In this document: positions 50,948-60,096 of the stretch, one piece after another
How positions within the stretch are numbered: position 1 is the stretch's first letter
Layout: every line of letters starts with the position of its first letter
From: Candidatus Hydrogenedentota bacterium
Lineage (GTDB): Bacteria > Hydrogenedentota > Hydrogenedentia > Hydrogenedentales > JAEUWI01
Direction: 5' to 3'
Assembly (NCBI GenBank): GCA_016791475.1
Contig: JAEUWI010000026.1
Coordinates: 1 to 64,000, forward strand
DNA length: 64,000 bases
Notes under the pieces: model-generated
Told to the model about the DNA's origin: nothing
The model's database searches: none
What the model saw: only the letters and a program-made list of their open reading frames with translations
Position numbers and translations under genes: made by a program

Positions 50948-52180
50948 ATGACTGATTTATCCAGAATATACGCGCGATTCTTGTGCATGACGGCACTGCT
51001 CCTGCCCCTGGCGGGCTGTCCCCTGATCACCGGAGGGCAGAACCCGCCGGAGCTGGACTCCTTCCAGATCAACGGCGGTGCGGCAAGCACCTTGGAGCGG
51101 GAAGTGACGCTCGACAATGTGTCCCACGAAAATCCCACCCACTTCCTCGCATCGGAGTCCCCGGACTTCGCCGATGCCGATTGGTGGGTCTACTCGGAGG
51201 CGCCCGCTTTCACCCTTTCCGAAGGCGACGGTGCAAAGCGCGTATACTTCAAGCTCAAGAATTACAAAGGCGAGTCCTCCGTCCTTTCCGACGAAATCTA
51301 CCTCGGTGATTTGCCGGCCGAAGGCGAGGGAGAGGGTGAAGGCGAAGGCGAAGGCGAAGGCGAAGGTGAAGGTGAAGGCGAAGGCGAAGGTGAAGGTGAA
51401 GGTGAAGGTGAAGGTGAAGGTGAAGGTGAAGGCGAAGGCGAAGGTGAACTGCTTGAAGAACTCGTGGAGTTGCCCGGTGGCCTCGATCTCTCCATGGTAT
51501 TGCTGCCGGCAGGGAATTTCTATATGGGCGCCTTCTTCCTGGAACCCGGAGGTTTCAGCGTCGAGACGCCCCAGCATCTCGTTACGCTTAGTCAGCCCTT
51601 CTGGATCGGCAAATTTGAAATTACCCAAGCCCAATGGCTGGCCGTCATGGGCGAGAACCCCGCCTATTTTCAGGGCGAAGCCTACGGCGACACGACCAAC
51701 CATCCCGTCGAGCAGATCTCGTGGGACGAGGCCCAGGACTTCTGCACCCAATTGAGCACCCTCACCGGCGATGTCTACCGCCTGCCCACCGAAGCCGAAT
51801 GGGAATACGCCTGCCGGGCCGGCAGCGCCACCCGCTACTTCTGGGGCAACGACTATGACCCGATCCTGATTGCCGACCAGGCCTGGTACCTCGGAAACAG
51901 CGGCGAAACCACCCACCCCGTCGGCCTCTTTCCGCCCAACGCCTGGGGCCTCTACGACACCAGCGGCAACGTGTGGGAATGGACCGCCGACTGGCTCTCC
52001 AACTACAGCGCCGCCGCCGTCACCGACCCCACCGGCCCCGAGACCGGATCCTTCCGCATCCAGCGCGGCGGTTCCTTCTACAACGAAGACTACTTCCTCC
52101 GCTCCGCCCTGCGCAGCTACGGCGTGCCCGAAGCGGGCGGCTGGTCCAACGGCCTCCGCGTGGTCCGGGAGGCAAACTGA
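50948..52180 (+). CDS. SUMF1/FGE-fold lipoprotein with (EG)n linker
   Basis: 410 aa; AGAGGGA upstream. The signal MTDLSRIYARFLCMTALLLP ends in lipobox LAGC (Cys 24). Residues 25-124 form a strand-rich domain, then residues 125-167 are almost pure Glu-Gly repeats, then a formylglycine-generating-enzyme fold: MVLLPAGNFYMG, FEITQAQWLAVMG, YRLPTEAEWEYACRAGS, NAWGLYDTSGNVWEWTADW and FRIQRGGSF. The Cys pair needed by true FGE is missing from the C-terminal LRSALRSYG...LRVVREAN region, so it is probably a binding protein and does not activate sulfatases. Confidence 0.88.
   Translation: MTDLSRIYARFLCMTALLLPLAGCPLITGGQNPPELDSFQINGGAASTLEREVTLDNVSHENPTHFLASESPDFADADWWVYSEAPAFTLSEGDGAKRVYFKLKNYKGESSVLSDEIYLGDLPAEGEGEGEGEGEGEGEGEGEGEGEGEGEGEGEGEGEGEGEGEGELLEELVELPGGLDLSMVLLPAGNFYMGAFFLEPGGFSVETPQHLVTLSQPFWIGKFEITQAQWLAVMGENPAYFQGEAYGDTTNHPVEQISWDEAQDFCTQLSTLTGDVYRLPTEAEWEYACRAGSATRYFWGNDYDPILIADQAWYLGNSGETTHPVGLFPPNAWGLYDTSGNVWEWTADWLSNYSAAAVTDPTGPETGSFRIQRGGSFYNEDYFLRSALRSYGVPEAGGWSNGLRVVREAN
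51320..51448 (+). repeat. (GAAGGY)n tandem repeat encoding poly-(Glu-Gly)
   Basis: About twenty-one 6-bp units GAAGGC or GAAGGT (a few GAGGGx) in frame within the SUMF-like gene. Alternation of the third base between C and T is irregular, so unit gain or loss by slippage is likely. Changes in unit number would keep the reading frame, altering only linker length. Confidence 0.95.
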
Positions 52181-52306: not shown

Positions 52307-53755
52307 ATGTTCGAACAGACCTTTAGAAATATCGACGACATCCTCCGCCGCGAAGGCGGGGGCGTGCTGAAATACACCGAGCAATCCTCCTGGATCCTCT
52401 TCCTGAAATACCTGGACACCTTGGAGCAGGAAAAGGCCATGGAGGCGGCGCTGGAGGGGAAGAAGTACACCTTCATCCTCGACGAGCCCTACCGCTGGGC
52501 GCACTGGGCCGTGCCGAAGGACGGCGAAGGCAAGCCCGACCACAACAAGGCCCTCATCGGCGACGATCTTCGCGATTTTGTGAACCAGAGGCTCATTCCC
52601 TATCTCCAGGGCTTCAAGCAGCGCGCCAGCGGCCCCAACACCATCGAATACAAGATCGGCGAGATCTTCAGCGAAACGAAAAACGAGATCAACAGCGGCT
52701 ACAACCTCCGCGAGATCCTCGAACTGGTGGACGAGCTCCGCTTCCAGTCCCAGGCCGAAAAGCACGAGCTGAGCTACCTCTACGAGGAGAAAATCGGCAA
52801 CATGGGCAACGCCGGGCGCGACGGCGGCTCCTACTACACCCCGCGCCCCCTCATCCGCGCCATCGTCCAGGTGGTCGCGCCCAAAATCGGCGAACGGATC
52901 TACGACGGCGCCGTGGGCTCCGCCGGCTTCCTCTGCGAGGCCTTCGAATACCTCCGCGCCTCGAAAAAGCTCAGCACCAGCGATCTGAAGAAGCTCCAGA
53001 GCAACACCTTCTTCGGCAAGGAAAAGGACAAGCTCGCCTACGTTATCGCCATCATGAACATGATCCTCCACGGCATCGAAGCGCCCAACATCCTCCACGT
53101 GAACACCCTCACGGAGAACAGCGCCGACATCCAGGAGAAAGACCGCTTCGACGTCATCCTCGCCAATCCGCCCTTCGGCGGCAAAGAGCGCAAGGAAGTC
53201 CAGCAGAACTTTCCCATCCGCACCAGCGAGACCGCCTTCCTCTTCCTCCAGCACTTCATCAAGATGCTGAAGGCCGGGGGCCGCGCGGGCGTCGTCATCA
53301 AAAACACCTTCCTCTCCAACACCGACAACGCCTCCGTCAGCCTCCGCAAGGAACTCCTCCAGAGCTGCAACCTCCACACCATCCTCGACTGCCCCGGCGG
53401 CACCTTCCAGGGGGCCGGCGTGAAAACCGTCGTCCTCTTCTTCGAAAAAGGCGCGCCCACGCGGAAGATCTGGTACTACCAGCTCGACCCCGGCCGTAAC
53501 CTCGGCAAGACCAACCCCCTCAACGACGACGACCTCGCCGAGTTCGTGGAACTGCAGAAGACCAAAGCCGACTCGGACAAAAGCTGGAGCATTGACGCCG
53601 CCACCATCGACCAGGGCACCTTCGACTTATCGGTGAAAAACCCCAACGGCGGCGAAGTTGTCGCCCACCGCACCCCGCAGGATATCCTCGACGAAATCGC
53701 TGCGCTGGACGCGGAAAGCGCCGAGGTCCTGGCCACGATTCGGGGGCTGCTGTGA
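52307..53755 (+). CDS. hsdM: Type I restriction-modification DNA methyltransferase subunit
   Basis: 482 aa; GGAAG upstream. The N-terminal HsdM helical domain (TFRNIDDILRREGGGVLKYT, YKIGEIFSETKNEINSGYNL) is followed by N6-adenine methyltransferase motifs: DGGSYYTPRPLI, motif I DGAVGSAGF at 200-208, and motif IV NPPF at 287-290. Motif I starts DG where DP is usual. The subunit methylates adenine at sites chosen by HsdS. It overlaps hsdS by 4 nt (GTGA). Confidence 0.95.
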   Translation: MFEQTFRNIDDILRREGGGVLKYTEQSSWILFLKYLDTLEQEKAMEAALEGKKYTFILDEPYRWAHWAVPKDGEGKPDHNKALIGDDLRDFVNQRLIPYLQGFKQRASGPNTIEYKIGEIFSETKNEINSGYNLREILELVDELRFQSQAEKHELSYLYEEKIGNMGNAGRDGGSYYTPRPLIRAIVQVVAPKIGERIYDGAVGSAGFLCEAFEYLRASKKLSTSDLKKLQSNTFFGKEKDKLAYVIAIMNMILHGIEAPNILHVNTLTENSADIQEKDRFDVILANPPFGGKERKEVQQNFPIRTSETAFLFLQHFIKMLKAGGRAGVVIKNTFLSNTDNASVSLRKELLQSCNLHTILDCPGGTFQGAGVKTVVLFFEKGAPTRKIWYYQLDPGRNLGKTNPLNDDDLAEFVELQKTKADSDKSWSIDAATIDQGTFDLSVKNPNGGEVVAHRTPQDILDEIAALDAESAEVLATIRGLL

Positions 53756-54927
53756 AGCCGGGGTGGGAGGTGAAGAAGCTGGGGGACGTTTGTCGAACCG
53801 GGGCTGGCGGAACGCCATCGAAATTGAACAAGGAATACTACGAGAATGGGACAATTCCGTGGCTCATGAGTGGTGAGATTGCCCAAGGTGACATCCGGCA
53901 ATCGACTCAGTTCATTAGTGAGTTGGGGCTAAAGAACTCGTCCGCAAAGGTATTTCCATGCAATACGGTACTGGTCGCAATGTACGGAGCTACCGCTGGG
54001 CAGGTCGGCATTCTTCGTATGGAGGCAGCAACGAACCAGGCTGTCTGCGGAATACTACCAAACGCGGAATTCGTTCCGGAGTTTGTTTATTTCTTCATGC
54101 TATCCCAGAAAGAGGGGCTTGTAAGTCAAGCGACTGGAAACGCACAGCCGAATATTTCACAGGAGAAGATTCGCAACACCCGCATCCCCGTCCCCCCGCT
54201 CGCCGAACAGCAGCGGATCGTTGCCTTCCTCGACGAAGCCTTTGCGGGCATCGCCACCGCCCGGGCCAACGCCGAAAAGAACCTCCAGAACGCCCGCGCC
54301 CTCTTCGAAAGCCACATCAACGCTGTCTTCACCCAGCGCGGCGAGGGGTGGGTGGAGAAGCGACTGGGGGAAATTTGCGCAATCACGTCAAATCTTGTCG
54401 ATCCAAAAGATGAAGCGTACTTAGACCAATTGCATGTTGGGGCTGGGAATATCCAGTCCAAGACTGGTGCCCTCCTGGATCTCAAAAGTGCCCGAATGGA
54501 GGGGTTGATATCAGGCAAGTTCCCCTTTGATCCGTCCATGGTTCTCTACAGCAAGATCAGGCCATATCTGATGAAGGTCGCGCGCCCGAGTTTCAGTGGT
54601 GTGTGTAGCGCGGATATGTATCCGCTAACCCCTGTTGAGGCTGTGGTGACCCGCGATTACCTCTTCCATCTTTTGCTGAGCAAGCCGTTCACGGATTACG
54701 CAATCGAAGGTTCGGCGCGTGCCGGCATGCCAAAGGTGAACCGCGATCACCTCTTTGAGTATCGCGTGTGGATTCCAAACCTCGAAGCACAACAAGCGAT
54801 TGCTCTAGAGCTTGACCAACTTCACGTGGAAGCCCAACGCCTCGAATCCATCTACCGGCGCAAGATCGCCGCGCTGGACGAGATGAAGAAGTCGCTGCTT
54901 CACGAAGCGTTTTCAATCGACCGTTGA
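53752..54927 (+). CDS. hsdS: Type I restriction-modification specificity subunit
   Basis: 391 aa; the GTG start overlaps hsdM by 4 nt. Two half-repeats each have a variable target-recognition domain and conserved helix: WEVKKLGDVC ... RNTRIPVPPLAEQQRIVAFL ... NARALFESHINAVF, then WVEKRLGEIC ... HLFEYRVWIPNLEAQQAIAL ... KIAALDEMKKSLLHEAF. The recognition domains have lower GC than the conserved parts, as expected for segments exchanged by recombination. The last 50 bases (54870-54919) recur at 55481-55512 and 56352-56400. Confidence 0.95.
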   Translation: MKPGWEVKKLGDVCRTGAGGTPSKLNKEYYENGTIPWLMSGEIAQGDIRQSTQFISELGLKNSSAKVFPCNTVLVAMYGATAGQVGILRMEAATNQAVCGILPNAEFVPEFVYFFMLSQKEGLVSQATGNAQPNISQEKIRNTRIPVPPLAEQQRIVAFLDEAFAGIATARANAEKNLQNARALFESHINAVFTQRGEGWVEKRLGEICAITSNLVDPKDEAYLDQLHVGAGNIQSKTGALLDLKSARMEGLISGKFPFDPSMVLYSKIRPYLMKVARPSFSGVCSADMYPLTPVEAVVTRDYLFHLLLSKPFTDYAIEGSARAGMPKVNRDHLFEYRVWIPNLEAQQAIALELDQLHVEAQRLESIYRRKIAALDEMKKSLLHEAFSIDR

Positions 54928-55022
54928 CCATGTGTTGCTGGAATTCTACTGTGACTATTTGCTTGTCTCAGCGAATAAAACTCACCAGACGACTGTATAC
55001 TTGGAAGGAGGCAATCGAACAG

Positions 55023-55466
55023 ATGGACCTTTTGCAAAACACATTCGCAACATTGTTTGTCTCCGCATTGGGTGGTGGATTCGCGTTGTTGGGGAACTAT
55101 CTCATAGTCAGACGACAAGACCGCGATGGGCGGGCGCGATCAGTCCTGTCAACTCAAGTCGAAGTACATCAGCAGGCATATGCGCATTGGTTTCGGCTAC
55201 GACATCTGGACAGTCCTGGTGAGGACCGGCTGGTCATCGTTAATGACGCGCTGGACTGGTGGTCCAGGCACTGCCTTTATCTACCGCCTGCGCTTCAGGA
55301 TTCCTTTTACTCTACCGTCATCGCGGCGCGTCAGCACGCCGATACGGAAGGAGATCGGCGTAACGTGTTCTGGGATGAACTGAAGATTCTGGGAGTCTCG
55401 ATTGAAGCCAGTGTGCGGGAGCTTGGCATTCATTTGGACACACGGTCCATTGCGTCGATCCGATAG
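55023..55466 (+). CDS. Small membrane-anchored accessory protein of the type I locus
   Basis: 147 aa from the ATG at 55023 (GGAGG 11 nt upstream). An N-terminal membrane helix (TLFVSALGGGFALLGNYLIV) is followed by a soluble helical domain (RQDRDGRARSVLSTQVEVHQ...SVRELGIHLDTRS). I recognise no family. Base composition is lower in GC than hsdM or hsdR, suggesting recent acquisition. It lies between hsdS and a copy of the hsdS 3' end. A membrane-tethered effector or regulator is possible but unproven. Confidence 0.6.
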   Translation: MDLLQNTFATLFVSALGGGFALLGNYLIVRRQDRDGRARSVLSTQVEVHQQAYAHWFRLRHLDSPGEDRLVIVNDALDWWSRHCLYLPPALQDSFYSTVIAARQHADTEGDRRNVFWDELKILGVSIEASVRELGIHLDTRSIASIR

Positions 55467-55480
55467 AAAGCAGTAGTTCG

Positions 55481-55545
55481 CCGCGCTGGACGGACTGAAG
55501 AAGTCGCTGCTGCAATTGACATTGGACAATGGATAATTGACAATG
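55481..55545 (+). repeat. hsdS 3'-end copy B plus short dispersed repeat
   Basis: 55481-55512 repeats the end of hsdS (GCGCTGGACGGACTGAAGAA and following), which in that frame reads AALDGLKKSLLQL. It is followed by CAATTGACATTGGACAATGG-type repeat sequence and an in-frame stop. It marks the boundary between two accessory genes. Confidence 0.85.
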
Positions 55546-55568: not shown

Positions 55569-56093
55569 ATGACCGCGAAGAAAAGCTACAGCATTGACGA
55601 TCCCCTCTTTGGCTTCGACGAGGACTTTGAGGTCGGCGCGAATAAGGTGTTGATGCTTGGGGAGTCCGACATCTCCACACACGGAGGCATGGCCCTGGCC
55701 TACAAGAATGCGGCGGATATACTGGTGCAGAAAGCGCTGGACCGTGACGAAACCTCCTGGGAAATCGCCGCACCGATCATGTACCTGTACCGGCACAGCC
55801 TGGAGTTGTCCTTGAAATGGGCGACCCAGTCGAACGCAAAGTGCCATGACCTGGAAGGCATGATACAACAGGCCAACGAGCGTGCGAAGCAGCAGACTGG
55901 GAAAGCACTTCATCCTGCAGTCATCGAGCGGATGCAGGAGTTTTCGGAATTTGATAAAAAGGGCTTTGCCTTCCGGTATGCCGACGCGGGTGAGGATGCA
56001 CACTGGATTGGAGTCACCGTTAAACTCCTGCACCTTCGCAAGGTCATGGAACGGATAACGGCGGATTTGGTCGAGCTGGGCCGGCAACGTTGA
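55569..56093 (+). CDS. HEPN-like small protein
   Basis: 174 aa; GAGGAGG 8 nt upstream. All-helical, with a central segment IAAPIMYLYRHSLELSLKWA then CHDLEGMIQQANERAK that resembles HEPN-type domains, in which an Arg-His pair (YRHSLEL) and a HDL motif recur. HEPN proteins are often ribonucleases in toxin-antitoxin or abortive infection systems, yet the canonical RxxxxH motif is not certain here. It lies in the restriction locus between two hsdS tail copies, consistent with a defence role. Confidence 0.6.
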   Translation: MTAKKSYSIDDPLFGFDEDFEVGANKVLMLGESDISTHGGMALAYKNAADILVQKALDRDETSWEIAAPIMYLYRHSLELSLKWATQSNAKCHDLEGMIQQANERAKQQTGKALHPAVIERMQEFSEFDKKGFAFRYADAGEDAHWIGVTVKLLHLRKVMERITADLVELGRQR

Positions 56094-56339: not shown

Positions 56340-56464
56340 AGCGCAAGAGCGCGGCGCTGGACGAACTGAAGAAGTCGCTGCTTCACGAAGCGTTTTCAAT
56401 GGACAATGGACAATTGACAATGGAGAACGGAAGAGTTCTTTTCGGGGGTGAACTTAAGGTATGA
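56340..56464 (+). pseudogene. Remnant of an hsdS 3' end (copy C)
   Basis: 56352-56400 differs from the real hsdS tail at only a few positions and reads SAALDELKKSLLHEAFS in frame. It then enters the short dispersed repeat (56396-56424, reading MDNGQLTMENG) and stops at 56462-56464. Only about 20 hsdS codons remain and no upstream part exists. It looks like the fused end of a lost or recombined hsdS allele. Confidence 0.8.
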
Positions 56465-56503: not shown

Positions 56504-57634
56504 ATGAGCGCCATGGCTCCAGTTCAATATCATTTGGGGGAGTTTCCCCCGCACTCTCTTGACTGGCCGCGCCTGATCCCGTTGATTGGCCCGGCCAGCG
56601 CGGGGTTGGCGCGCTACGATGGATTGTTGACCGCCATTCCCAACGCACAGATTCTGCTTTCTCCGCTTACGACGCAAGAAGCGGTACTATCGTCGAGGAT
56701 TGAAGGGACGCAAGTTACTATCGGTGAAGTGCTTGAAATTGAGGCGGACGGCCAGTCCGAAACCATCACTCAACCTAAGCGGGACGACGCCGAAGAAGTT
56801 CTGAACTACCGCAAAGCGATGCGTGCCTGTGTGGCGGAGTTGGAGCGTCGCCCGCTCTCCCAGCAAATTCTGCGCGCGGCCCACAGCCTGCTGATGCAGG
56901 GTGTTCGGGGCCGAGACCAGACCCCTGGAAGTTACCGGACGGAGCAAAACTGGATAGGCCCCAAGGGGTGTTTGGAGCAAGAGGCCAGTTTCGTGCCGGT
57001 TTCTCCGGCCCACTTACAACAGGGTATGGACGCATGGGAGCACTATCTCGGAAATACTTCCGAACTCGATGCACTGGTTCAACTGGCGATAGTTCACGTT
57101 GAGTTCGAGGCGCTTCACCCGTTTAAGGATGGAAATGGGCGATTGGGTAGGATGATGATTCCGTTGTTTATGTTCCAGCGAAAGCTACTGTCCAGTCCCG
57201 ACTTTTATATGAGCGGCTATCTCGAAGCCAATCGTGAAGAGTATCAGCAACGTCTTCGCGCCGTTTCGCGCGATGGTGACTGGACCGGGTGGTGTGCTTT
57301 TTTTCTACAGGGAATAGCGAAACAAGCGGCCGAGAACGAACGGCGGGCGCGATCTATTCTAGCCCTCTACGACCGGGTTAAGACCGAGGTAGCCGATGTA
57401 ACACATTCCCAACATTCGATACGCGCCTTGGATTTCATCTTTCAAAATCCCATTTTTACATCACGGCATTTTATTAACTACTCAAGTGTTCCAAAACCGA
57501 CTGCCGCGCGAATTCTGACTGTATTGCGCGATGAGAGCATTCTGCTAACAGTGCGAAAAGGTCGTGGTAGGCGTCCTGGTGTTTTTGCTTTTCGAGAGCT
57601 TCTGAATATTGCCGAGGGCAAAGAGGTATTTTGA
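56504..57634 (+). CDS. Fic family AMP-transferase-type protein with winged helix
   Basis: 376 aa; AGGA 5 nt before the ATG at 56504. The catalytic loop HPFKDGNGRLGR (205-216) is a perfect HxFx(D/E)GNGRxxR. An N-terminal inhibitory helix motif, SSRIEG (63-68), fits (S/T)xxxE(G/N), so it is the class II self-inhibited type. The C-terminal 90 residues look like a winged helix (HFINYSSVPKPTAARILTVLRDESILLTV). It would AMPylate a protein target when relieved; the wHTH may bind the palindrome just downstream of the gene. Confidence 0.93.
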   Translation: MSAMAPVQYHLGEFPPHSLDWPRLIPLIGPASAGLARYDGLLTAIPNAQILLSPLTTQEAVLSSRIEGTQVTIGEVLEIEADGQSETITQPKRDDAEEVLNYRKAMRACVAELERRPLSQQILRAAHSLLMQGVRGRDQTPGSYRTEQNWIGPKGCLEQEASFVPVSPAHLQQGMDAWEHYLGNTSELDALVQLAIVHVEFEALHPFKDGNGRLGRMMIPLFMFQRKLLSSPDFYMSGYLEANREEYQQRLRAVSRDGDWTGWCAFFLQGIAKQAAENERRARSILALYDRVKTEVADVTHSQHSIRALDFIFQNPIFTSRHFINYSSVPKPTAARILTVLRDESILLTVRKGRGRRPGVFAFRELLNIAEGKEVF

Positions 57635-57660
57635 GTCTCATCCATGCGATACAAGCTCCC

Positions 57661-57694
57661 TTGTGTCTCATATTTTAAAAAAAATGAGACACAA
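57661..57694. promoter_or_regulatory. 11-bp-arm palindrome between fic and hsdR
   Basis: TTGTGTCTCAT (57661-57671) and ATGAGACACAA (57684-57694) are perfect inverted repeats around 12 A/T bases. Partial copies of the half-site lie at 57632-57641 (TGAGTCTCAT) and 57714-57724 (GTGAGACAAAA). All fall in the 95-nt gap before the hsdR start. No T-run follows, so an operator is more likely than a terminator. Confidence 0.65.
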
Positions 57695-57729
57695 TCCTGC
57701 TTGTCACTAATCTGTGAGACAAAACATTC

Positions 57730-60096
57730 ATGAACGAATCGGAAACCCGCGCGGAACACATTGACCCGGCCCTGGCAGCGGCGGGCTGGGGTGTGGTGCC
57801 GGGGAGCCGCATCCGCCGTGAGTACCACATCACCCACGGGCGCATCGAGGGTCCGGGCCGTCGCGGAAAGGCCCTGACCGCCGACTATGTGCTGGAATAC
57901 CGCAACACGAAACTGGCGGTGCTGGAGGCGAAGGCGTGGGGCAAGGCCCTGACGGAGGGCGTGGCCCAGGCGAAGGATTACGGCGGCAAGCTGGCGCTGC
58001 GCTTTGCCTATGCGAGCAATGGCCAGGGGCTCTATGAAATCGATCTGGAGTCGGGCGACGAGGGCGCGGTGTCCGCCTGGCCCACGCCGGAGGAACTCTG
58101 GAACCGCACTTTTGCCCACGCCAACGCGTGGCGCGATCGCTTCGCGGAAATCCCCTTTGAAGACAAAGGTGGATCCCACCCGAGCCGCTACTATCAGGAC
58201 ATCGCCATCGAGCGGGTGCTGGAGGCCGTGGCGAATGGGGAGGAGCGAATCCTCCTGACGCTGGCCACGGGCACGGGAAAAACTTTCATCGCCTTCCAGA
58301 TCGCGTGGAAGCTCTTCCACGCGCGCTGGAGTCTTTCTTCAATGGACAATGGACAATTGACAATGGACAACGAAAAAGCCCCATTGCGTCGTCCACGAAT
58401 TCTCTTTTTAGCAGACCGCAATATATTGGCGAATCAGGCGTTTAATGCGTTTTCCGCATTCCCCGAGGATGCGCTGGTAAGAATCGCGCCGGAGGCCATT
58501 CGGAAGAAGGGGCGGGTTCCGAAGAACGGGAGCATCTTCTTTACCATCTTCCAGACCTTCATGAGCGGTCCGCCGAAGGAGGGACACCCTTCGCCGTATT
58601 TTGGCGATTACCCGCCGGACTTCTTCGACTTCATCATCATCGACGAGTGCCACCGGGGCGGTGCGAACGATGAGAGCACGTGGCGGGACATTCTTGAGTA
58701 CTTCGAACCGGCGGTGCAGCTCGGTCTGACGGCAACGCCCAAGCGCCAGGGCAATACCGATACCTACCGTTATTTCGGCGATCCGGTCTATATCTATTCG
58801 CTGAAGGAAGGCATCAACGACGGCTTTCTCACGCCGTTCAAGGTGAAGCAAATCGCCACGACGCTGGACGAGTATGTCTACACGCCCGACGACACCTTGA
58901 TCGAAGGCGAGATCGAGGCGGGCAAGCGCTACGAAGAGCCGGACTTCAACCGTATCATCGAGATCATGGAGCGGGAGAAGAAGCGCGTGCAGATCTTCCT
59001 GGACCAGGCCAACCCGCGCGAAAAAACCATCATCTTCTGCGCCACCCAGGAGCACGCCCTGGCCGTGCGCGACCTCGTCAACCAGATGAAGTCGGTCTCC
59101 GACCCCAACTACTGCCAGCGGGTCACGGCGAACGACGGGGCGCTCGGCGAACAGCACCTGCGGGATTTCCAGGACAACGAGAAGACCATCCCCACGATCC
59201 TGACCACCTCACAGAAGCTTTCCACGGGCGTGGATGCGCGGAACATCCGCAATATCGTACTGATGCGGCCCGTGCGCTCCATGATCGAGTTCAAGCAGAT
59301 CATCGGGCGCGGCACACGGCTCTACGACGGCAAGGATTACTTCACGATCTACGACTTCGTGAAGGCCCACCACCATTTCATGGATCCCGAGTGGGACGGC
59401 GAGCCCCTGGAGCCGGAGGCCGACTCGGCCCGACCGCGTCCGCCCCGTGTTGCCGAGGATTCTGAAAATAGGGGTGAGGACGGCGAGGACAAGGCACCGA
59501 GAAAGCCCATCAAGGTGAAACTGGCCGATGGCAAGGCCCGCAGCATCCAGCACATGATGAGTACCACTTTCTGGCACCCCGACGGCACGCCCATGTCCGC
59601 CCAGCAGTTCATGGAGGCACTCTACGGCAAGCTGCCGGACTTCTTCAAAGACGAGGCGGAGTTGCGGACGCTGTGGAGCGATCCGGCGACGCGAAAGAAA
59701 CTGTTGGAGGCCCTGGCGGAAAAGGGCTTTGGCCGCGAGCAGTTGGACGAGATGCAGCGTATTATTGATGCCGAAAACAGCGATCTCTTCGACGTATTGG
59801 CCCACGTGGCCTATGCGCTGCCGCCCGAGAGCCGCGAAGTGCGGGCTACTCGTGCGCGGCACATTATCCGAGACCAGTTCGGCTCAAAGCAGCAGAAATT
59901 CCTCGATTTCGTGCTGCACCACTATGTGAGCGATGGCGTGGACGAACTGGATCAGGAAAAACTGGCCCCGCTGCTGCGACTCAAGTACCACAACTCCATT
60001 CCGGACGCCGTCGCAGATCTGGGCCAGCCCGACGACATCGGTCGGACCTTCGCCGGATTTCAGAAGTATCTCTACCAGGGGCAGGGGATGATGTAG
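57730..60096 (+). CDS. hsdR: Type I restriction endonuclease subunit R
   Basis: 788 aa, the short EcoR124-unlike (type IB/ID-like) form. The nuclease domain carries D52 and ExK at 67-69 (LEAKAWG). The SF2 helicase motor has Walker A ATGTGKT (179-185), DECH in FIIIDECHRGG and motif III LTATPKR. It translocates DNA and cuts unmethylated sites with HsdM and HsdS. Residues 204-215 (MDNGQLTMDNE region) are an in-frame insertion coded by a short dispersed repeat, in a variable loop after the Walker A helix. No SD is visible at the ATG. Confidence 0.94.
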   Translation: MNESETRAEHIDPALAAAGWGVVPGSRIRREYHITHGRIEGPGRRGKALTADYVLEYRNTKLAVLEAKAWGKALTEGVAQAKDYGGKLALRFAYASNGQGLYEIDLESGDEGAVSAWPTPEELWNRTFAHANAWRDRFAEIPFEDKGGSHPSRYYQDIAIERVLEAVANGEERILLTLATGTGKTFIAFQIAWKLFHARWSLSSMDNGQLTMDNEKAPLRRPRILFLADRNILANQAFNAFSAFPEDALVRIAPEAIRKKGRVPKNGSIFFTIFQTFMSGPPKEGHPSPYFGDYPPDFFDFIIIDECHRGGANDESTWRDILEYFEPAVQLGLTATPKRQGNTDTYRYFGDPVYIYSLKEGINDGFLTPFKVKQIATTLDEYVYTPDDTLIEGEIEAGKRYEEPDFNRIIEIMEREKKRVQIFLDQANPREKTIIFCATQEHALAVRDLVNQMKSVSDPNYCQRVTANDGALGEQHLRDFQDNEKTIPTILTTSQKLSTGVDARNIRNIVLMRPVRSMIEFKQIIGRGTRLYDGKDYFTIYDFVKAHHHFMDPEWDGEPLEPEADSARPRPPRVAEDSENRGEDGEDKAPRKPIKVKLADGKARSIQHMMSTTFWHPDGTPMSAQQFMEALYGKLPDFFKDEAELRTLWSDPATRKKLLEALAEKGFGREQLDEMQRIIDAENSDLFDVLAHVAYALPPESREVRATRARHIIRDQFGSKQQKFLDFVLHHYVSDGVDELDQEKLAPLLRLKYHNSIPDAVADLGQPDDIGRTFAGFQKYLYQGQGMM
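58339..58367 (+). repeat. Dispersed 29-bp repeat inside hsdR
   Basis: These 29 bases are identical to 56396-56424 in hsdS-tail copy C; a variant lies at 55513-55545. Here the repeat is read in frame as part of hsdR (codons 204-213) and adds MDNGQLTMDN without breaking the protein. Confidence 0.9.

Follow-up and report, generated by a model that had tools for sequence, protein, structure and literature searches.

C proteins of type II RM systems are small HTH activator-repressors with symmetric operators, and their gene lies within the RM operon. Type I RM operons have been linked to a repeated operator through RptR, a small dedicated repressor that acts on the site TAGCTA at the promoter of a whole type I RM defence island, as outlined in the accessible text of PMC12255303. 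Among Fic proteins, CccR of Yersinia pseudotuberculosis represses through its HTH domain on palindromes, according to the accessible sections of PMC9755527, while DNA binding by SoFic, an anti-phage Fic protein (PMC12249575, in excerpt), is called undemonstrated in the excerpt of PMC10628234. Here we describe an array of half-sites that follows a Fic gene inside a type I RM operon, and compare it with these systems.

The array and the genes around it

The window (the whole stretch of DNA analysed, 64,000 nucleotides of a Candidatus Hydrogenedentota contig) contains the operon hsdM-hsdS-fic-array-hsdR (Table 1), in which HsdR, HsdM and HsdS are all present, as in an EcoAI-type type I RM system. 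The 3' end of hsdS occurs in three copies (54874-54897, 55486-55509 and 56357-56380), which flank two ORFs between hsdS and fic (54924-55466 and 55569-56093); these have no match in Pfam or PADLOC, and resemble a cargo insertion accompanied by duplicated hsdS ends. An ORF at 50948-52180 carries a long alternating Glu-Gly run in its first half.

The initial annotation had described a palindrome with perfect 11-bp arms and a partial half-site on each side, all lying within a 95-nt gap between fic and hsdR. The arms TTGTGTCTCAT and ATGAGACACAA (h3 and h4) do match perfectly over 11 bp across a 12-nt spacer, and the flanking half-sites were recovered as h1 and h6, each 30 nt outward of the P2 arms. 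The gap from the fic stop (57634) to the hsdR start (57730) is indeed 95 nt long, but the left outer half-site begins inside the fic stop codon, which is overlapped by P1 (TTTTGA-GTCTCAT). With two further, weaker half-sites (h2 and h5), the palindrome is the central part of a 94-bp array with dyad symmetry (57631-57724), which has a layout of 24-6-34-6-24, i.e. three palindromes separated by 6-bp gaps and composed of six half-sites of the form TTGtgkcTCAy, ending 5 nt before the hsdR ATG. The core pattern TGTCTCAT-N4..20-ATGAGACA has a single match in the 7.7-Mb genome of this organism, and the reversed control has none. In the window alone, the 11-mer with at most 2 mismatches shows no excess (11 found, 8.9 expected); the case for the array is comparative. 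No array lies before fic within the window, consensus matching gave no promoter in the window's fic-hsdR gap, and the gap is too small for a small antitoxin gene. The site also survived a check of the proposal that its only function is termination: the sequence next to P2, TCCTGCTT, contains no U-tract, so that the G+C-rich stem plus U-run of an intrinsic terminator is absent, and the one terminator-like match is at chance level (1 found, 0.8 expected).

Table 1. Coordinates of the operon genes, Fic domains and array elements in the window
Feature	Coordinates	Strand	Description
hsdM	52307..53755	+	type I methyltransferase
hsdS	53752..54927	+	type I specificity subunit
fic	56504..57634	+	376 aa; Fic_N + Fic domain + C-terminal winged helix
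C-terminal winged-helix domain of Fic	57401..57631	+	residues 300-376, from AF2 models
Predicted recognition helix of Fic	57494..57532	+	residues 331-343; residue 335 is codon 57506-57508
P1	57631..57654		24 bp; h1 57631-57641 (+), h2 57644-57654 (-), 2-nt spacer
P2	57661..57694		34 bp; h3 57661-57671 (+), h4 57684-57694 (-), AT-rich 12-nt spacer
P3	57701..57724		24 bp; h5 57701-57711 (+, weak), h6 57714-57724 (-)
hsdR	57730..60096	+	EcoAI/FtnUII-type type I restriction subunit (NF046051, 817.9 bits); putative controlled gene

Two motifs of the Fic protein are intact, HPFKDGNGRLGR (residues 205-216) and S63xxxE67G68, which we take to be the Fic motif and a class-II-type inhibitory motif, respectively, and their key residues are invariant across 49 aligned sequences. 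The AF2 model (pLDDT 92.5) bears out the winged-helix-like C-terminal region proposed earlier, with helices at 305-314, 320-326 and 331-343 and strands at 348-351 and 360-362, the two-strand wing coming after the predicted helix 331-343. The solved folds nearest to the whole model are those of SoFic, 3zcn and 3eqx. For the C-terminal domain alone, the nearest folds are MarR-type regulators, including the DNA complexes 7el3 and 8zde, with weak matches (E ~0.008).

Conservation of the array beside fic

Relatives of this fic were taken as the best 80 of 95 from one genome-collection scan, and most of these 80 carry the same array immediately 3' of the fic stop codon. Arrays were scored with a model of six half-sites in the orientation + - + - + -, with gaps of 2, 6, 12-13, 6 and 2. 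A first, ungapped model gave arrays in 38/81 loci (window included), increasing to 68/81 with variable spacers, all of which score above every one of 586 control segments. The control-segment threshold had been set by apparent true second arrays among the control segments (with scores equal to those of L064, L075 and L078), and a score cut-off of 22 was therefore used instead. At this cut-off, the array adjoins fic in 74 of these best 80 of the 95 relatives, across many phyla, with 72 arrays after fic (including L040, assigned upon inspection by hand, where a misplaced fic stop had made a directly adjoining array seem distant) and two only before it. Elsewhere in the 860,374 bases of the loci nothing scored 22 or more (the best being 4.2), and reversed sequence gave matches at this score in 0/80 loci. 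The initial annotation had stated that an operator would be refuted if the palindrome were not conserved where fic-hsdR synteny is kept, a check that the site withstood.

The six loci without an array at this cut-off are L005, in which P1 and P2 are nevertheless visible, L055 (score 20.3), L061, L074, in which P2 is nevertheless visible, L079, in which the fic match stops at residue 323, and L080, with a Fic of 41% identity. Spacing is near-rigid in 57 of 68 arrays, with gaps of (2,6,12,6,2) in 34 and (2,6,13,6,2) in 23. Three loci (L022, L069 and L073) have tandem arrays, with a repeat period of 70 bp in L022 and L069, corresponding to alternating 24- and 34-bp palindromes. In a Bryobacterales locus (L075, 4522-5838), one fic is preceded by four arrays distributed across 1.3 kb and followed by none. 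No array was obtained for the Hydrogenedentota Fic relatives that are 26-38% identical (L098-L122 without L102, a fragment). A second Fic protein in the window's own genome (G000 contig C8, 122853-123866, L119; 33% identical) likewise has no such array by the six-half-site model. In one genome (G015) the same operon occurs with an HsdM 74% and an HsdR 66-72% identical to those of the window, and an IS200-like transposase ORF that contains a repeated peptide (L204, 2979-4028) lies where fic would be; in this single case of fic loss, degenerate P1 and P2 remnants scoring 5.5 precede hsdR.

Another 42 distinct fic loci (L129, L131-L141 and L143-L172; about 38-66% identity) extend the comparison. 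At a score of at least 9, an array is present in 33 of them (16 after fic, 17 before) and absent by the six-half-site model in the other nine; arrays scoring 9-22 are weak, and many of the 17 upstream arrays fall short of 22, in part owing to the training of the model on arrays that follow fic. Those before fic sit in a more distant Fic clade, and the tree shows six changes of the array-position label, the labels of nine SoFic loci having been given by eye. The arrays before fic stop 22 to 206 nt short of the fic match, and in L154, L159 and L168 the array is located at the fic start codon itself. A standalone fic (L097), 74% identical to that of the window, has an array over a good promoter (TTGAAA-18-GATAAT) before fic, and P1 and P2 again after it. 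Sigma-70-like sites scoring at least 9.5 between the array start and the next start codon were found for 7 of 18 upstream arrays (the 17 plus L097) versus 0 of 38 downstream arrays; these scores reflect a sigma-70-like consensus, and the host genomes may use other promoters.

The half-site core and Fic residue 335

The cores of the half-sites vary between loci (GTCTC, GGATC, GGCTC, GTATC, TAATC and others), with 13 cores among the 29 arrays with agreeing P2 arms, of 44 representative arrays. Within a locus, half-site agreement exceeds that of shuffles for nearly all pairs (0.86 versus 0.41 shuffled for h3-h4, 0.65 versus 0.41 for h1-h4), and is weakest for h1-h2, h2-h5 and h5-h6. The core also follows the identity of residue 335, which lies in the predicted recognition helix and is alanine in the window Fic. 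Positions 5-6 of a P2 half-site are GG in 22/22 loci with K335 and in 7/46 with other residues, and on a tree from which the winged helix was left out, K335 comes first among 573 residue traits drawn from the entire protein. In an enlarged set of 104 loci (duplicates L095, L096, L123-L126, L130 and L142 having been dropped beforehand), GG is found with 27/27 K335 Fics versus 11/77 others, so that 11 Fics without K335 also have a GG core; such locus counts are not independent events. Mutual information over all Fic columns, in a protein alignment excluding L013, L074 and L079 (stops or frame breaks), placed column 335 second of 307 for half-site position 5, 24th for position 6 and 107th for position 7. 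Because this measure is swamped by kinship, a tree-based test was used, giving six independent pairs in the set of 104 loci, with a mean of 5.3 in the same direction and 0 opposite; with so few pairs the sign test has a median p of 0.0625. The evidence for an association between K335 and GG is consistent, not overwhelming.

The first proposal, an operator-like site to which the winged helix of Fic binds, is well supported at the sequence level by the linkage to fic across phyla, by the tracking of residue 335 and by the winged helix seen in the models, and from this evidence we consider it very probable that Fic binds the array. This would offer a specific DNA target for a widespread class of Fic proteins, together with a candidate specificity rule relating residue 335 to half-site positions 5-6.

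Possible control of hsdR, and known systems

The next co-directional gene encodes a restriction or BREX effector after 34 of the 72 downstream arrays (HsdR in 23, PglZ-like proteins in 4, BrxL in 4, ResIII/BPTD_3080-type proteins in 2 and GmrSD in 1), as named by family search for representatives and by similarity for the others. HsdR is located further downstream in L008 and L009, a DNA methylase is next in L034 and its relative in L046, and the remaining downstream neighbours are ordinary or uncharacterised genes. Since the array also follows fic before genes that are unrelated or on the opposite strand (e.g. in L028, L032, L033, L038 and L063), downstream control is not its sole role; the array would belong to fic, with hsdR control as one use of it, a plausible and likely one in the window.

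Three other candidates were rejected. An operator belonging to HsdR itself is unsupported, the array following fic before unrelated genes too; fic-less HsdR loci with at least 1 kb upstream (L087, L089, L090 and L092) score at most 5.5, with an array remnant visible in L092. A methylation sensor, in which the array would be the cognate HsdS target, was set aside by reasoning from HsdS divergence, because the HsdS of L002, L003 and L005 are only 32-34% identical to that of the window and the core is still GTCTC. For looping with a second site before fic, no excess of sites was found.

We propose that Fic is a two-domain switch, in which an AMPylating enzyme is joined to a C-terminal winged helix that would read the half-sites. 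Several Fic subunits would bind the three palindromes together, and bound Fic would form a roadblock to read-through from hsdMS-fic into hsdR, keeping HsdR low relative to HsdMS, while HsdR would rise once Fic leaves the array. As there is no promoter-like site between fic and hsdR, a roadblock fits better than a promoter operator, and this one line of evidence, the absence of sigma-70-like sites, points to it as the most likely mode. Repression or roadblock of hsdR by Fic is somewhat favoured, and the reading as a whole, namely a Fic-bound operator array of six half-sites, a two-domain switch and a roadblock before hsdR, has in our view a good probability of being correct. In the related clade with the array before fic, bound Fic should repress fic itself. 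A link between AMPylation and restriction is offered as a hypothesis, and would give type I RM and BREX-like systems a possible way to tie restriction to a protein-modifying enzyme. Repression would not by itself produce the earlier suggested lag of restriction behind methylation. On entry, a repressor that the operon itself encodes is not yet there and HsdR would be made first; a lag would need an activator or slow release.

Alternatively, the main role of the array could be that of a DNA ligand (a leash or activator) switching the activity of the Fic enzyme, rather than that of a transcription operator; Fic bound to its six sites would stay silent or primed, and AMPylation would be freed once the DNA, or binding to it, is lost. 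We regard this as unlikely. It agrees with the invariant catalytic and inhibitory Fic residues, with the persistence of the array beside fic in every context, including standalone genes without a gene to control, and with the stimulation of AMPylation by DNA binding in the related CbFic2 (PMC10628234, in the text accessible). However, a single array gives each chromosome six half-sites, few for the titration of an enzyme, and the upstream-clade array lies at the fic promoter or start codon, as expected of an operator. A long hairpin in the fic-hsdR transcript, attenuating or protecting it, is improbable. The predicted fold is stable (-32 kcal/mol, z -5.4; 0/200 shuffles as good), the arms co-vary, and the G-U share of P2 non-Watson-Crick cells is 0.28, exceeding 1/6, a share that transitions alone also raise. 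But any DNA dyad folds in this way, P2 has neither a U-tract after it nor terminator-like matches above chance, Rfam gave no match, half-sites drift together across palindromes and not only between paired arms, several upstream-clade arrays precede a promoter-like site and so lie outside the transcript, and the core tracks a Fic residue. Least probable is binding by another regulator, or an array that marks the end of a mobile element carrying fic: fic and array can lie between unrelated genes (e.g. def and fmt in L028, fmt being named from a reading of its start and not by family search) and arrays can be tandem, but a matching site occurs at the other end of fic in only 4/62 loci (above the 95% null), no recombinase is tied to fic and array, and the core tracks residue 335 of Fic itself.

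Building on the proposed Fic-bound roadblock, a broader and rather doubtful extension is that fic and array form a portable control cassette, both lock and weapon, that stands between the genes for modification and those for restriction in defence systems of unrelated kinds, with several HsdR families, PglZ and BrxL of BREX-like loci, and GmrSD as hosts. Bound to a lattice in which 24- and 34-bp palindromes alternate, Fic would block the restriction gene; an infection signal would free Fic, the block would fall, and the freed enzyme would AMPylate its target. If so, one event would arm two defence layers.

Among the Fic, CccR and SoFic papers covered, judged by titles and the beginnings of abstracts and with most subscription papers and preprints outside the scope, none describes an array of operators that follows fic in RM or BREX loci. 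SoFic/EcSofic (PMC12249575, in excerpt) shares its fold and domain order with the window Fic, which scores 359 bits against the PADLOC SoFic model and 159.1 bits, below the cut-off of 550, against the NCBIfam SoFic equivalog NF046030. SoFic-type loci differ in having other repeats (TCGACAT), upstream of fic. In the loci reaching the SoFic cut-off (L173-L181; G600, G532 and others), TCGACAT/ATGTCGA half-sites lie within about 190 nt before fic, and these repeats, often spaced N11 inward and N15 outward, occur in 8/9 loci, the ninth having been read from a wrong start; they are likely an operator array of SoFic itself. CbFic2 of Coxiella resembles the window Fic in its winged helix and has DNA binding linked to enzyme activity; in the accessible text of PMC10628234 its specific site is left to future study, and its biological setting is another one.

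Like RptR, the window array is a repeated operator linked to a type I RM operon, with the difference that here the candidate regulator is an AMPylating enzyme and the array lies inside the operon. Type II C-protein systems share with this locus a controller gene inside the RM operon and symmetric operators, whereas the window Fic is a 376-aa enzyme with no activation indicated, and is not a C-protein controller. CccR is the nearest precedent, with another architecture and place. Both proteins combine a Fic enzyme with a C-terminal DNA-binding domain, the window Fic having a Fic domain with intact motif followed by a C-terminal winged helix, and the inverted-repeat half-site of CccR ends in TCAT, as it does here (PMC9755527, in the sections accessible). 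An upstream operator of its own gene, as in CccR, is absent in the window and present in L097 and the distant clade. According to the same text, the CccR site is a single inverted repeat, AGATAATCAT-N26-ATGATAATCT, upstream of the gene that encodes CccR, whereas the window array comprises six half-sites in three palindromes with spacers of 2, 12 and 2, placed after fic and before hsdR.
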